A stretch of DNA of 41,527 nt, taken from NCBI RefSeq assembly GCF_015355625.1, contig NZ_JACLAF010000021.1:1-41527 (forward strand), written 5' to 3'. Source of the DNA: Tamlana sp. I1 (GTDB taxonomy: Bacteria; Bacteroidota; Bacteroidia; Flavobacteriales; Flavobacteriaceae). The translations under genes were made by a program, and so were the position numbers. Of this stretch, positions 29,361 through 41,527 are shown piece by piece. Position 1 is the stretch's first letter. Every line of letters starts with the position of its first letter. The notes below the pieces were generated by a model, which was not told the DNA's origin, made no database searches, and saw nothing but the letters and a program-made list of their open reading frames with translations.

Positions 29361-30320
29361 ATGCTAAAAGCTGGAGTACTAGGTGCGGGACACTTAGGGA
29401 AAATTCATTTAAGACTTCTAAATCAATCTGAAAAATTTACCCTTGTTGGTTTTTATGATGCCGATGAAGAAAATGGTAAAAAGGTTGAAGCAGAATTTGG
29501 CTATAAATTTTTCAGCACCATTGAATCTCTTATAGATGCGGTTGATGTTGTTGATATTGTAACACCAACACTTTCACATTACGATTGCGCCAAACAAGCC
29601 ATTGCAAAAGGCAAACATATATTTATTGAAAAACCAATTACCAATACGGTTGAAGAAGCCGAGCATATTCGTGAACTATTAGCCGAAAACAATTTACGTG
29701 GCCAAGTGGGTCATGTCGAGCGCTTTAACCCTGCGTTTATTGCCATAAAAGATGATATTAAGTCGCCCATGTTTATTGAAACACACCGTTTGGCAGAATT
29801 TAATCCCAGAGGTACCGATGTGCCTGTGGTTTTAGATTTAATGATTCATGATATCGACATTATATTAAGTATTGTAAAATCGAAAGTAAAACACGTTTCT
29901 GCTAGTGGCGTTGCCGTTATTAGCGAAACCCCAGATATTGCAAACGCACGTTTAGAATTTGAAAATGGCTGTGTTGCCAACTTAACAGCGAGTCGTATTT
30001 CACTTAAAAAAATGCGTAAAGCACGTTTCTTTCAAAAGGACGCTTACATTTCAGTTGATTTTTTAACTAAAAAATGTGAGGTTGTAAAAATGAAAGATGC
30101 TCCAGAAAACCCTGGCGATTTCGATATGATACTTCAAAATGCAGAAGGCGTTAAAAAGCAAATTTATTTTGATAATCCGGAGGTGCCAGACAACAATTCT
30201 ATTTTAGATGAATTGGAAACTTTTGCCGATGCTGTAAACAACAACCAAACACCTATCGTTTCTTTACACGACGGTACCGAAGCATTACGTGTAGCCACTC
30301 AAATTATAAATTGTTTCTAG
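29361..30320 (+). CDS. Gfo/Idh/MocA family oxidoreductase
   Basis: The 319-residue NAD(P)-dependent enzyme has the Rossmann start GVLGAGHLGKIHLRLL, the family motif EKPITNTVEEA (EKP), VGHVERFNPAF and LDLMIHDIDIILS in the substrate domain. Such enzymes act on sugars and related alcohols, and some make biliverdin-like or UDP-sugar products; the substrate here is unknown. Its stop codon is directly followed by the ATG of a 3-hydroxyacyl-CoA dehydrogenase gene, so the two form one transcript and may be translationally coupled. Confidence 0.88.
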   Translation: MLKAGVLGAGHLGKIHLRLLNQSEKFTLVGFYDADEENGKKVEAEFGYKFFSTIESLIDAVDVVDIVTPTLSHYDCAKQAIAKGKHIFIEKPITNTVEEAEHIRELLAENNLRGQVGHVERFNPAFIAIKDDIKSPMFIETHRLAEFNPRGTDVPVVLDLMIHDIDIILSIVKSKVKHVSASGVAVISETPDIANARLEFENGCVANLTASRISLKKMRKARFFQKDAYISVDFLTKKCEVVKMKDAPENPGDFDMILQNAEGVKKQIYFDNPEVPDNNSILDELETFADAVNNNQTPIVSLHDGTEALRVATQIINCF

Positions 30321-35514: not shown

Positions 35515-36354
35515 ATGACGACGCCTAAAAAAAACTGGAAAAACAAGCTTTTTGTTATTATCTACGGTACAAATACGCCTGCAGGAAAACTGTTTGATGT
35601 CATTTTACTCTATACCATAATCGCTAGTATTTTGCTAGTTATGTTAGAGAGCGTAAAAAGCATCGACGAGCATTATCATACCTTTTTAAATATATCGGAG
35701 TGGATTATCACCATTCTCTTTACCGTCGAGTACATCCTTCGTGTAGCGACAGCCAAAAGGCCTTGGCAATATATTTTTAGTTTTTACGGACTCATCGATT
35801 TACTGTCTACCATTCCAAAATACATCTCGTTATTCTTGGGAGGAATTCATGCCCTAGCGGCTTTACGTGCCCTAAGATTACTTCGAATTTTCAGAATTTT
35901 AAAACTCGGCAGGTATTTAGGAGCTTCTAATAACCTATTAAATGCCTTAAAAGCCAGTCGTGCAAAAATCTCAGTCTTCTTGTTTGCCGTACTCATAATT
36001 GCCGTTATTCTAGGCACTATTATGTACATGGTTGAAGGCGAAGAAAATGGTTTTTCTAACATTCCTAAAAGTGTGTATTGGTGTATCGTAACCCTTACCA
36101 CAGTAGGTTTTGGCGATATTGCACCGCAAACCCCACTAGGGCAATTTATAGCGGCCATGATTATGATTTTAGGTTATGGCATTATAGCTGTTCCAACAGG
36201 TATCGTATCTGTAGAATACAGTAACCAAGCATCGGGCTCCAAAAAAAGCGACGAAAAGACGCCAGAAATCCCTCAAAAAATTTGTCCAAACTGTTTGGCT
36301 GAAAACCATCTAGAAAGTGCAAAATTCTGCTATCAATGTAGCGAGAAACTTTAG
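35515..36354 (+). CDS. Voltage-gated-type potassium channel with C-terminal zinc ribbon
   Basis: The 279-residue protein has six hydrophobic segments. S4 (about 118-134) reads RALRLLRIFRILKLGRYL with regularly spaced arginines; the pore loop has the selectivity filter TLTTVGFGD (193-201) with IAPQTPLGQ after it; S6 contains GYGIIAVPTGIVS with the hinge glycine. The cytoplasmic tail ends in CPNC and CYQC, 14 residues apart, an apparent zinc ribbon of the kind that often replaces a ligand-binding tail. It conducts K+ by the filter sequence. Confidence 0.9.
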   Translation: MTTPKKNWKNKLFVIIYGTNTPAGKLFDVILLYTIIASILLVMLESVKSIDEHYHTFLNISEWIITILFTVEYILRVATAKRPWQYIFSFYGLIDLLSTIPKYISLFLGGIHALAALRALRLLRIFRILKLGRYLGASNNLLNALKASRAKISVFLFAVLIIAVILGTIMYMVEGEENGFSNIPKSVYWCIVTLTTVGFGDIAPQTPLGQFIAAMIMILGYGIIAVPTGIVSVEYSNQASGSKKSDEKTPEIPQKICPNCLAENHLESAKFCYQCSEKL

Positions 36355-37885: not shown

Positions 37886-38590
37886 ATGCCAATCAAATTG
37901 AAAAAAGGATTTTCTTTTTTTTATAAAAATGAATTGTGGAAAGTAACCGACATTTATAAAATTAAATGGAATGATGGTTCTGTTAGCAATGAGTACAAAA
38001 TTAAGAATAAGAAAGGCCTCATTAGATATTTAGAAATTGAGCTTTCAAAAAACAAAGCCAATTATTCTTTTTGGGAAAAAATCACAGATAAAAGCGTACT
38101 ATCTTCTAGTCTAAACAACGTAGATGATGATTATATCGCTTTTGAGAAAGCAAAATTTCCAAAGCAAATAAAATATAAAGGTGTAAATTATTCTTTTAAA
38201 GAAAGAAATGATGGCATTTGTCAATATGCTTATGAAAAGGAAACCATTAATTCCATAGATTATTCTAATCAAGATGGTTCAAAATTACTTTCTATTGAAA
38301 TATGGGACGATGAAGTTGAAATATCAACAGGAATCATAATTGAAGAATCCCAAATCTCTCGTATAGAAAAAGGATCTCCAAATTTTGATTCTTCTGCTAT
38401 CATTGATAGTTTAGGTAAATATATTGGTGCCATTATAATTGTAGGCTTTATATTAATTAGCAGTCTATTAAGTAGATGTTCCAATGGTAACTCATGGAGT
38501 GATAACTCATCTAATTATAACGATTCTACAAAAGTTAACCGTTCAAACAATTTTTATAGAGGCAGAAGCTCGGGAGGGTTTGGTAAATAA
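37886..38590 (+). CDS. DUF4178 protein with one membrane helix
   Basis: First gene of the four-gene operon. The 234-residue protein has DUF4178-like content: an N-terminal half with FFYKNELWKVTDIYKI and IKNKKGLIRYLEIE, then IKYKGVNYSFKERNDG, SIDYSNQDGSKLLSIEIWDDEVEISTG, the family's characteristic acidic E-W-D region. A transmembrane helix (about 178-196, IGAIIIVGFILISSLLS) is followed by a serine-, asparagine- and glycine-rich tail of about 38 residues. There is no signal peptide, so the large domain is likely cytoplasmic. Function unknown; it is six bases before the DUF350 gene. Confidence 0.75.
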   Translation: MPIKLKKGFSFFYKNELWKVTDIYKIKWNDGSVSNEYKIKNKKGLIRYLEIELSKNKANYSFWEKITDKSVLSSSLNNVDDDYIAFEKAKFPKQIKYKGVNYSFKERNDGICQYAYEKETINSIDYSNQDGSKLLSIEIWDDEVEISTGIIIEESQISRIEKGSPNFDSSAIIDSLGKYIGAIIIVGFILISSLLSRCSNGNSWSDNSSNYNDSTKVNRSNNFYRGRSSGGFGK

Positions 38591-38596
38591 TTTTTT

Positions 38597-39496
38597 ATGG
38601 AAGAAAACACATTAATCTGGATTGGAAACACCTTTTTTTACATTTTTTTATTTTTTATTTTATTTTTCATTTCGAAACAATTATTCTTAAATAGGTTTAA
38701 AAAAATCGATGTTAATAATGAACTAACCACAAAAGACAATGTTGCTTTTTCAATTTTAACTACAGGTTATTACGCAGGTATTCTTATTATTTTTTTGGGT
38801 GTAATTCAGGGTGATTCATACGGATACCTTATAGATACTTTTCTAGTCATTATTTATGGTATTATTGGAAATCTTTTGCTTTTGGTATCCTCTGTAATTA
38901 ACGAAAAAATTGTTTTTACAAAGAAGTTTAGTTTATTTAAAGAAATTGTCCGTGATGAAAACAGAGGTGCGGGAGCTATAGAGTTTGCTAACTTTATAGG
39001 TTCTTCTTTAATAATTTATGGAGCTATAACAGGAAAGAGTACCAATTTTTTCCCTGAACTAAGCAACATTGGTTTATTCATATCTGGATTGATAAGTTTA
39101 ATTGTATTTTGGAGCATTGGCCAATTTATTTTACTTGTTTTTTTTAAAATATACCCTTCCTTTTCTAAATACGAAATTTTTAAACAGATTGAAAAAGATA
39201 ATAATGCAGTAGGCGTGGTATATGCCAGTATTTTTATTTCAATTGCTTTTTTATATGCCCAAGCTATCAAAGGTGATATCATCTCCTGGCTTTTAACGAT
39301 TGAAAATATCGTATACTATTTAGGTCTCGGATTTATTCTTCTCCCAATTTCTAGATGGGTTGTTGATAAAATTATATTGCCAAAAAGTGATTTAACACAT
39401 GAAATTGTTCATCAAGAAATCCCTAACCAAGGGGCGGCATTCATTGAAGCCTTCGCCTATATAGGAAGTGCTGTTTTAATTAGTTTTTGTATCTAA
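38597..39496 (+). CDS. Tandem DUF350 integral membrane protein
   Basis: The 299-residue protein is almost wholly hydrophobic, with about eight membrane segments. An internal duplication is visible: NRGAGAIEFANFIGSSLIIYG (123-142) matches NQGAAFIEAFAYIGSAVLIS (277-296), and two DUF350 units of four helices each fit the length. DUF350 has no established activity. It overlaps the next gene by one base (TAATG), the tightest coupling in the window, so it is surely co-expressed with the aminopropyltransferase-like gene. Confidence 0.85.
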   Translation: MEENTLIWIGNTFFYIFLFFILFFISKQLFLNRFKKIDVNNELTTKDNVAFSILTTGYYAGILIIFLGVIQGDSYGYLIDTFLVIIYGIIGNLLLLVSSVINEKIVFTKKFSLFKEIVRDENRGAGAIEFANFIGSSLIIYGAITGKSTNFFPELSNIGLFISGLISLIVFWSIGQFILLVFFKIYPSFSKYEIFKQIEKDNNAVGVVYASIFISIAFLYAQAIKGDIISWLLTIENIVYYLGLGFILLPISRWVVDKIILPKSDLTHEIVHQEIPNQGAAFIEAFAYIGSAVLISFCI

Positions 39497-41052
39497 TGCA
39501 TTCGTCCGTCATAAAACAGAAAATTTTATTTTTAGCACTTTTTGCCACAGGTCTTTCTGGTATTGTAGCCGAATATTCGTTTGCTACTTTATCTACATAT
39601 TTTGTTGGAGACTCTGTAAAGCAATGGTCTATCGTCATTTCATTGATGTTATTTAGTATGGGCCTAGGAAGTAGAATTACAAAATCTTTTGATGGGAATA
39701 TTTTCAAATTATTCATCATTACTGAATTCATTTTATCCTTTATTGTATCTTTTTCAGCTGTAACTACCTACTATTTAGCGTCTCAAATTGACTATATTGG
39801 TATTTACATCTATAGCATGGCTATCGTAACAGGCACCCTTATTGGTATGGAGCTTCCTTTAGCGATGCGTCTAAATGATGAATTCCAATCACTTAAACTA
39901 AATGTAGCAAACATCCTTGAGAAAGACTATTATGGAAGTCTAATTGGAGGTTTGTTTTTTGTCTTTATAGGGCTCCCGTATTTAGGATTAACATACACCC
40001 CTTTTATTCTTGGTTTCATTAATTTGTCTGTCGCCATAGTGCTACTTATTTTCTTCAAGAATAAATTAAATTCAAGAGAACAAATATACTTTTACTTTTT
40101 CATGACCGTTTTGTCTCTTTCCTTAATTTTAGGTTGTTTGTTTTCTCAAAAAGTTATTTTACACGGAGAACAAACAAAATATAAAGACAAAATCATTTTT
40201 CAAGAACAATCCATATACCAAAAAATAATTGTTACTAAATGGAAAGATAACTACTGGCTTTACTTGAATGACAACCTTCAATTTTCAACCTTTGATGAAC
40301 CATTATACCATGAAGTTCTTGTTCATCCAGTTATGCAAATATTGCAGAAACCGAGAAATATTCTAATACTTGGTGGTGGTGATGGTTGTGCTGCTAGAGA
40401 ATTATTAAAATACAATAATGTTCAGAAAATCACCTTGGTTGACTTAGACAAGAAACTCACAGACTTATTTATTCAAGAAGAGGAACTAACTGAAATAAAC
40501 AAACAGTCTTTAACTAATCCTAAGGTAAACATTATTAATAAGGACGGGTTTACCTTTATAAGTGATACCGATAAATTTTACGACCTAATTATTATTGATT
40601 TACCCGACCCTAGAAACATAGAACTCTCACGATTATACTCGAAAGAATTTTATGAATTATGTCGTATAAGATTAACTCAAAATGGAGGATTAATCACACA
40701 AGCAGGCAGCCCTTATTATACGCCTAATGCGTTTGAATGCATAAACAAAACACTAAAAAGTGCAGGATTCAGTTCTTTAAAACTGCATAACCAAGTACTT
40801 TCAATGGGTGAATGGGGCTGGGTTTTAGGTACTAAAAAAAATCTATCACATAGTGAAATGACCAAGCTGTTATCTAAATTTAACGAAGATAAAATTGAGA
40901 CTAAATGGCTAAATAATGAAAGTATGGAGTTAATCACCAAGTTTGGCAAAGATTTTTATAACAAAAATCAGACGGACTCCATAATGATAAACCAAATTAG
41001 TAATCCAGTACTTTACCATTATTATAATGAAGGAAACTGGGATACCTATTAA
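39496..41052 (+). CDS. Membrane-bound spermidine synthase-like aminopropyltransferase
   Basis: From the ATG at 39496 the protein has 518 residues: about seven membrane helices in residues 8-216, then a spermidine-synthase domain. The latter has YLNDNLQFSTFDEPLYHEVL (YHE 271-273), the AdoMet-type loop ILGGGDGCAARELL (293-297 GGGDG), LVDLDKK, and the catalytic-region IIIDLPDPRNIELSRLYSKEFY. It would transfer an aminopropyl group from decarboxylated AdoMet to an amine or another acceptor. Fusion to a membrane domain is a known variant. The acceptor is not evident from sequence. Confidence 0.9.
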   Translation: MHSSVIKQKILFLALFATGLSGIVAEYSFATLSTYFVGDSVKQWSIVISLMLFSMGLGSRITKSFDGNIFKLFIITEFILSFIVSFSAVTTYYLASQIDYIGIYIYSMAIVTGTLIGMELPLAMRLNDEFQSLKLNVANILEKDYYGSLIGGLFFVFIGLPYLGLTYTPFILGFINLSVAIVLLIFFKNKLNSREQIYFYFFMTVLSLSLILGCLFSQKVILHGEQTKYKDKIIFQEQSIYQKIIVTKWKDNYWLYLNDNLQFSTFDEPLYHEVLVHPVMQILQKPRNILILGGGDGCAARELLKYNNVQKITLVDLDKKLTDLFIQEEELTEINKQSLTNPKVNIINKDGFTFISDTDKFYDLIIIDLPDPRNIELSRLYSKEFYELCRIRLTQNGGLITQAGSPYYTPNAFECINKTLKSAGFSSLKLHNQVLSMGEWGWVLGTKKNLSHSEMTKLLSKFNEDKIETKWLNNESMELITKFGKDFYNKNQTDSIMINQISNPVLYHYYNEGNWDTY

Positions 41053-41061
41053 ACAATAATT

Positions 41062-41358
41062 ATGGAGGTAAATTATATTGAAACCAAACCAAACATGTTT
41101 CATTTCGAGGAATGGACACCAATAACTAATCCCCTTATTTTAAAAGAGAGTTTTGAGCATAAACTTAAACTTTCAGGATTTAATATTGTTAACTTTACCG
41201 AACATCATTTTCCTAAAAAAGGTTATACCTGCATATGGCTTCTAGCAGAAAGTCATCTGGCCATTCATACATTCCCAGAATGCAATAAAAGTTATGTGCA
41301 ATTAAGCAGTTGTAATCTCGAAAAAAGAAATGAGTTTGAACGTTTGCTTTCAATTTAA
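41062..41358 (+). CDS. Short AdoMet decarboxylase-like proenzyme (SpeD-like)
   Basis: SpeD makes decarboxylated AdoMet, the aminopropyl donor for the preceding enzyme. The 98-residue protein matches the bacterial 1B type: LLAESHLAIHTFPE with the self-cleavage serine S64 (future pyruvoyl), H69, and SSCN with the catalytic-type cysteine C84. Spacing between these three equals that of the Thermotoga enzyme as I recall it (S63, H68, C83). It is shorter than usual (about 115-130), ending soon after the cysteine. It is nine bases downstream of the aminopropyltransferase gene. Whether it acts on AdoMet or another amino acid is untested. Confidence 0.88.
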   Translation: MEVNYIETKPNMFHFEEWTPITNPLILKESFEHKLKLSGFNIVNFTEHHFPKKGYTCIWLLAESHLAIHTFPECNKSYVQLSSCNLEKRNEFERLLSI

Positions 41359-41404
41359 ATAGGCGCATTCAGAATTTAGCTTAATTACATAATAATCAAA
41401 TATA

Positions 41405-41450
41405 AAAACCAAAAATTGATTAAATATCAGTCTTGGTTTTTTGTTTTTTT
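41405..41450 (+). terminator. Terminator of the polyamine-type operon
   Basis: AAAACCAA (41405-41412) pairs with TTGGTTTT (41433-41440), with TGAT/ATCA pairing inside, followed by TTGTTTTTTT. It lies 46 bases after the speD-like stop codon and marks the operon end. Confidence 0.8.
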
Positions 41451-41527
41451 ATTAAAATCTTGATGCATTAGAGTTTTTAGGTGCTAATTGAACATAGGTA
41501 TCCCTGTGAAGTCTTTAAAACAACTAA

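Follow-up and report, generated by a model that had tools for sequence, protein, structure and literature searches.

Genes for S-adenosylmethionine (AdoMet) decarboxylase (SpeD) were reportedly described by Li in 2019 (Biochem J) as clustered with DUF350 and with a fusion of a major facilitator superfamily (MFS) domain to spermidine synthase, for which an acceptor other than putrescine is said to have been considered. Operons termed PspA-CesT/Tir group 2 are described in PMC11237479 and encode a spermidine-synthase-like protein with seven transmembrane segments, DUF350, DUF4178 and a lipoprotein; aminopropylation of non-polyamine substrates at the membrane is put forward there together with the gene grouping, in passages that give no orientation of the enzyme. 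The present analysis concerns four genes near the end of a 41,527-nucleotide stretch of DNA, referred to below as the window (positions 1 to 41,527 of contig NZ_JACLAF010000021.1, RefSeq assembly GCF_015355625.1), from the marine flavobacterium Tamlana sp. I1. These genes encode a DUF4178 protein, a DUF350 protein, a spermidine-synthase-like protein with a helical membrane domain (membrane SpeE) and a short SpeD. They form a reduced version of an operon type already known, that of SpeD, membrane SpeE, DUF350 and DUF4178, and the streamlined layout is new. The leading hypothesis for its function, to which we would assign a probability of about 0.38 from sequence comparisons, is that membrane SpeE uses decarboxylated AdoMet (dcAdoMet) to aminopropylate a terminal lysine encoded in the operon itself.

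As in the PspA-CesT/Tir group 2 operons, membrane SpeE, DUF350 and DUF4178 occur together in the window, and genes for the lipoprotein, for PspA and for CesT/Tir are found as well among relatives of the window operon, at 8 loci each. In contrast with that group, the window has no separate lipoprotein gene, the GGFGK tail of the lipoprotein being found on the DUF4178 protein; the operon contains SpeD; and K+ channels are present in 12 of 22 relatives. Further differences are that the PspA family was not found in the genome and that CesT/Tir was not among the open reading frames (ORFs) from position 29361 on, no genome-wide search for CesT/Tir having been made. The link to membrane stress proposed in an earlier note on this DNA is therefore weaker here than in relatives, since no PspA gene was found.

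Gene co-occurrence and the terminal lysine

Among 299 Flavobacteriaceae genomes, SpeD was present in 16 and membrane SpeE exceeded the cut-off in 14, with SpeD adjacent in all 14. Thus, SpeD and membrane SpeE are a dedicated pair, and the case that these genes fail to occur together elsewhere is excluded. The two SpeD genomes without membrane SpeE were one in which the contig ended (L021) and one in which the SpeD match contained an internal stop and no operon was present (L035). SpeD was found in neither of two other genomes of the genus included in the survey. Across the phylum, membrane SpeE exceeded the cut-off in 29 of 395 genomes. The surroundings of the phylum matches and of several plasmid matches were retrieved and 48 loci were compared; one locus added later (L099) is included among the 45 tail loci described below and excluded from the 48-sequence SpeE counts, and two viral contigs (L132 and L133) stood outside the tail search. 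A single-protein scan of genome contigs yielded two loci only.

Three classes of loci were evident from the SpeE tree. Class I, a clade that includes the window, was associated with DUF4178, lipoprotein, and DUF350 or a K+ channel, and class II, also a clade, with a small one-helix protein, short DUF350 and a flavin amine oxidase. Class III consisted of four loci with a GSP_synth ligase, the join of which had support of 97/76 and carries a long-branch warning. In four class I operons (L030, L031, L033 and L034), a gene for a rhomboid-family protease lay directly or nearly directly 3' of SpeD, and a TelA-type toxic anion resistance gene was noted within the membrane-SpeE operons of two Alteromonas mediterranea plasmids (L129 and L144).

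The tail in question was seen in relatives that carry a lipoprotein gene between DUF4178 and DUF350. The lipoprotein end, ...RSRSGGFGK, was strongly conserved, with GK as the last two residues in 19 of 19. The window DUF4178 protein, which instead carries both a hydrophobic stretch and this type of end, is 234 residues long as opposed to 160-209 residues for DUF4178 proteins of relatives without span or tail. A span and tail as in the window were also found in the DUF4178 proteins of L036, L037 and L124, and the pattern GGFGK-stop occurred once in the whole genome. Fusion of the tail to DUF4178 arose twice separately, in the window type and in L105. At other membrane-SpeE loci, the tail proteins were small and membrane-anchored with a flexible tail, and in most cases their genes immediately preceded DUF350 or SpeE. 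In support of the reaction proposed below, the lipoprotein tails lie outside, and the small tail proteins have basic N-termini ahead of the helix.

Tail proteins from all 45 membrane-SpeE loci without a ligase ended in lysine (27 GK, 17 HK and 1 VK) whereas those from the loci with a GSP_synth-type ligase (4 of 4) ended in GG. At six further loci, which were retrieved after the lysine end had been predicted and four of which were not near copies of earlier loci, the tail protein likewise ended in lysine (6/6). As background, 583 mechanically called ORFs of the same loci included 76 that ended in K, 5 in GK, none in HK and 1 in GG. The terminal-lysine rule for membrane-SpeE loci is new here. 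Searches of the open-access literature brought up no account of a lysine tail or of an aminopropyltransferase that faces outward, which does not establish absence from print.

Acceptor side, predicted orientation and proposed reaction of membrane SpeE

Membrane SpeE matched Pfam Spermine_synth (130.1 bits) and passed NCBIfam PRK03612 (NF002956) over the whole protein (551.1 bits, cut-off 472) but fell below the cut-off of the TIGR00417 spermidine-synthase model (153.3 versus 249.55). The GGGDG and YHE motifs recorded in the earlier note were present, the latter within DExxYHE, which was found in 48 of 48 homologues; GGGxG-type motifs were found in 47. A different picture emerged for the motifs DxTDPxG (gate loop) and P[ST]Y[YP]xG, which are seen in E. 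coli SpeE and which we take to be the acceptor-side motifs of spermidine synthase. Neither canonical motif occurred in any of the 48 homologues, D[LF]PDP with both aspartates (48/48) and [PL][ST]xG[EDNQ]WG (47/48) being found instead. This family-wide replacement of the acceptor-side motifs is new here. A Foldseek search with the SpeE part returned known aminopropyltransferases only, and we read membrane SpeE as a working aminopropyltransferase with a different acceptor. A link of the helix domain to MFS was considered and set aside, as PF07690 matched 1 of 32 members and MFS homology was not established.

These counts bear on the alternative that SpeD and SpeE jointly carry out ordinary spermidine synthesis, with putrescine as the acceptor in the cytoplasm and the membrane domain as an anchor or exporter. 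Such a role would suit the retained catalytic Asp, Tyr and His, the NCBIfam family name (polyamine aminopropyltransferase), the status of these two genes as the sole SpeD and SpeE of the genome and the absence from the genome of any match to carboxynorspermidine decarboxylase (NspC). It is nevertheless improbable in view of the TIGR00417 score, the loss of the putrescine-side motifs in 48 of 48 homologues, the restriction of any SpeD to 16 of 299 family genomes, and the report, attributed to Li 2019, that neither spermidine nor complementation was obtained with such proteins. Moreover, the genome contains one PF01916 deoxyhypusine-synthase-like gene, which represents an independent candidate homospermidine route, and bulk spermidine is therefore not an obvious role. 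Thus, the proposal in the earlier note that bulk spermidine synthesis is not the function agrees with both the rebuilt acceptor side and the PF01916 gene. Its idea of aminopropylation at the membrane also gained support from the rebuilt acceptor side but is not new, having appeared already in PMC11237479.

Seven hydrophobic segments were apparent in the family-averaged hydropathy of membrane SpeE, and the helices of a weak AlphaFold model coincided with them. In all 48 homologues, loops 2, 4 and 6 together with the N-terminus held more positive charges than loops 1, 3 and 5 together with the first residues after the helices. For the internal loops, lysine and arginine averaged 9.06 versus 1.06, the even loops being about twice as long. 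From the side of the positive charges and the number of helices, membrane SpeE is predicted to have its N-terminus inside, seven helices and its catalytic domain outside the cytoplasm, a topology that is new here. Acidic residues of the helix domain were conserved at E26, E119 and D144 (48/48) and at E77 (47/48). In class II relatives, the amine oxidase adjoining SpeE carried an RR-type signal, like that of the twin-arginine translocation (Tat) pathway, in 14 of 15 cases, which places a later step outside. Structure prediction, with inputs from the window, L036, L037 and L132 only, gave no usable fold for either the helix domain or DUF350.

According to the leading hypothesis, SpeD would convert AdoMet to dcAdoMet in the cytoplasm, as suggested by a close homologue with proven activity, and the helix domain of membrane SpeE, with its conserved acidic residues, would be the obvious candidate for the route of dcAdoMet to an active site at the outer surface of the inner membrane. 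There, the aminopropyl group would be transferred to an amine other than putrescine, the best candidate being the lysine at the very end of the flexible tail, which in the window is fused to DUF4178 by way of the membrane span. The lysine side chain is a putrescine-like aminobutyl amine, and its aminopropylated form, -(CH2)4-NH-(CH2)3-NH2, would have the skeleton of spermidine. Lysine with SpeE and Gly-Gly with ligase would then both give a protein end capped with spermidine.

The membrane effector of the modified tail might, as a guess, be DUF350, or the K+ channel in relatives. DUF350, in its short and long forms, clustered with SpeE in 36 analysed loci (L099 included). The K+ channels found in class I operons were of the Ion_trans type with a zinc-ribbon-like end in 5 loci and of the TrkA_N type in 7, and in four loci (L022, L023, L026 and L125) the channel replaced DUF350. 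K+ channels are blocked by polyamines. The complete scheme, a hypusine-like modification outside the inner membrane in which SpeE aminopropylates the tail lysine, the tethered spermidine gates DUF350 or the K+ channel, and the Gly-Gly/ligase systems reach the same product, would be unlikely to hold in all its parts.

The rebuilt acceptor pocket is also in keeping with another reading, which we regard as only slightly less probable than the leading hypothesis. On this reading, the acceptor of membrane SpeE is a small molecule or the head group of a lipid (e.g., ethanolamine or a diamine) at the membrane, and the lysine-ended tail protein has a sensory or regulatory role, binding either the product or DUF350. 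A cationic ligand would be well matched by the conserved acidic residues within the helix domain, and the exported flavin amine oxidase that adjoins SpeE in 15 loci belongs to an enzyme type that usually acts on free amines. PMC11237479 likewise proposes that polyamines are sensed or that other substrates are aminopropylated. Such a reaction, however, leaves unexplained both the terminal lysine of unrelated tail proteins and the occurrence of Gly-Gly only with the ligase.

Several points weigh against the leading hypothesis. While 31 of the 45 lysine tails came from sequence clusters, 14 of the 45 and all 6 of the later ones were picked by eye among small ORFs, and the 45 loci are far from independent phylogenetically. 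In two Burkholderia loci, the tail gene lay beside SpeD and DUF4178, not beside DUF350 or SpeE as predicted, and in L115 it was about 1.5 kb upstream. The terminal lysine could also go with DUF350 rather than SpeE. At 12 DUF350 loci without SpeE (of 32 such genomes), no nearby ORF ended in GK, HK or GG, and the membrane protein of 339-348 residues that adjoins DUF350 there ended in lysine in 12 of 12, which, as these proteins are one orthologous family, counts as a single observation. The outward orientation derives from charge distribution, the acceptor is likewise a deduction, and the structure models were weak (mean predicted local distance difference test score, pLDDT, 58.3 for membrane SpeE and 58.0 for DUF350). 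Finally, an outer active site would require export of dcAdoMet, for which we know of no precedent.

The targets of membrane SpeE, a family of thousands of proteins, have been a long-standing question since the gene grouping was described. If the lysine rule and outward orientation hold, the question of the acceptor becomes testable by simple mass spectrometry of a single peptide together with a single topology fusion. Aminopropylation of the tail lysine, if true, would be a second polyamine-type protein modification, would connect dcAdoMet with channels and the physiology of the envelope, and would explain the persistence of SpeD in bacteria whose product is homospermidine rather than spermidine.

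Probable activity and relatives of the short SpeD

The short SpeD scored above the Pfam AdoMet_dc cut-off (51.4 bits, cut-off 25) and below the equivalog cut-off of NCBIfam TIGR03330 (46.5 versus 75.65 bits), to which it was not a full-length match. Residues aligned with S63, H68 and C83 of the Thermotoga maritima enzyme, i.e., the self-cleavage serine and the catalytic histidine and cysteine, were retained, in agreement with the earlier note. The protein matched phage family phrog_27309 end to end (E 1.9e-30) and was 45% identical over 89% of the query to SpeD of Croceibacter phage P2559S, which, according to PMC9992855, brought back spermidine in E. coli from which speD had been deleted. AdoMet decarboxylation is thus the very probable activity of the window SpeD, and the donor pathway assumed in the earlier note is supported by this homologue and by the dedicated gene pair.

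Shifts of this family to arginine or ornithine decarboxylation are widespread, as stated in PMC10407285, and a short SpeD so altered would supply a diamine rather than dcAdoMet. The window protein has no proline aligned with T. maritima P51, a position that may correspond to the diagnostic proline of PMC10407285. A shift of this kind is nonetheless very improbable, since the phage P2559S member of the subfamily is a proven AdoMet decarboxylase, though one in which the P51-aligned proline is present, and since the neighbouring aminopropyltransferase requires dcAdoMet. In the class II SpeDs of L098, L100 and L113, serine was noted at the position aligned with the catalytic Cys83.

In the SpeD tree, ten bacterial short SpeDs formed one clade (99/98), nested among SpeDs from phages and Borrelia plasmids (97/94 for the group). 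The tree was midpoint-rooted, which does not fix the direction of transfer, and SpeD of this operon type may have come from phages.

A separate association was noted for the short-SpeD subfamily in phages. SpeD adjoined a protein resembling ParB and N6_N4_Mtase-type DNA methyltransferases in phage P2559S (L134:2674-4315) and on Borrelia turcica lp27 (L135:2937-4618), these partners being 47% identical over their C-terminal parts, and the combination was also found in Pseudomonas phage ZRG1. Among 80 viral loci kept from 123 found (IMG/VR loci L157-L236), 66 had a methyltransferase-like neighbour, within about 60 bases in 64; when the loci were clustered at 70% identity, such a neighbour was present in 17 of 22 clusters. 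No SpeE-like gene was present in the retrieved stretches of phage-type SpeD loci. One possible reading is that the methyltransferase-like protein modifies DNA with dcAdoMet as the donor, in which case the phage DNA would be aminopropylated.

Operon layout and comparison with known systems

The four genes were co-directional with intergenic distances of 6, -1 and 9 bases, as the earlier note had stated. Domain assignments were supported by Pfam matches to DUF4178 (48.8 bits, cut-off 25) and, over two stretches, to DUF350 (141.2 bits); the DUF350 gene is the only one in the genome. For membrane SpeE, the ORF list gives an upstream TTG at 39487, and the ATG was taken as the start.

Features of the window operon.
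Feature	Coordinates	Strand	Basis and remarks
DUF4178 protein, 234 aa	37886..38590	+	Pfam; DUF4178 domain residues 13-151; hydrophobic stretch about residues 174-196, judged from sequence; end ...RGRSSGGFGK
C-terminal tail RSSGGFGK and stop; proposed acceptor or docking tail	38564..38590	+	GGFGK-stop unique in genome; lipoproteins of relatives
DUF350 protein, 299 aa, two DUF350 repeats	38597..39496	+	Pfam
Membrane SpeE, 518 aa	39496..41052	+	seven-helix domain about 39523-40161; aminopropyltransferase domain about 40162-41049
Short SpeD, 98 aa	41062..41358	+	without the C-terminal third of class 1b AdoMet decarboxylases
Terminator-like hairpin and T-run, limits approximate	41404..41450	+	fold of 41355-41460

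The terminator claimed in the earlier note is plausible. The hairpin and T-run gave a z-score of -4.18 versus shuffled sequences, whereas a simple scanner restricted to loops of 3-8 bases listed no terminator 3' of SpeD. The earlier note missed the membrane span and lysine tail of DUF4178 and the predicted outward SpeE domain. Overall, the observation made in the earlier note was confirmed and its interpretation partly supported, and the hypothesis already in print was borne out in outline.

A Kv-like channel gene with a zinc-ribbon-like C-terminus lies two genes upstream (35515-36354), and related channels occur inside the operon of five relatives. It was considered as an operon member and rejected, as miaA intervenes and the channel is absent from this position in the three nearest relatives (L036, L037 and L124); it is probably an unrelated neighbour. 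A phage or defence role of the operon was likewise rejected. Three of the four proteins had no PHROG match, the SpeD match being to phage SpeD families, and a weak PADLOC mad2 match reflected the methyltransferase-like fold of SpeE. In other Flavobacteriaceae (L145-L156), a stand-alone DUF350 of 171-173 residues adjoined a one-helix protein of 339-348 residues with a C-terminus, mostly ...LTSK, that was kept in 12 of 12, and most of these loci encoded a further partner of about 324 residues.

The named locus closest to the window operon was that of Polaribacter vadi, with SpeE 75% identical. Relative to the grouping reportedly described by Li in 2019, the orientation of SpeE, the lysine tail, the DUF4178 fusion and the phage-type short SpeD appear to be additions. 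The peptide-spermidine ligases YjfC and YgiC of E. coli resemble the present system in having a DUF350 neighbour (yjfL) and a PspA neighbour (yjfJ), and YjfM and YgiB, encoded beside them, have a flexible conserved C-terminus that in both ends in GG. They differ in their chemistry, which is ligation as opposed to aminopropyl transfer, and the window genome has no GSP_synth gene (no PF03738 match). The modification proposed for the tail would share with hypusine on eIF5A the attachment of a polyamine-derived aminoalkyl group to a protein lysine. In hypusine formation, however, an aminobutyl group is transferred from spermidine in the cytoplasm by an unrelated enzyme, deoxyhypusine synthase.

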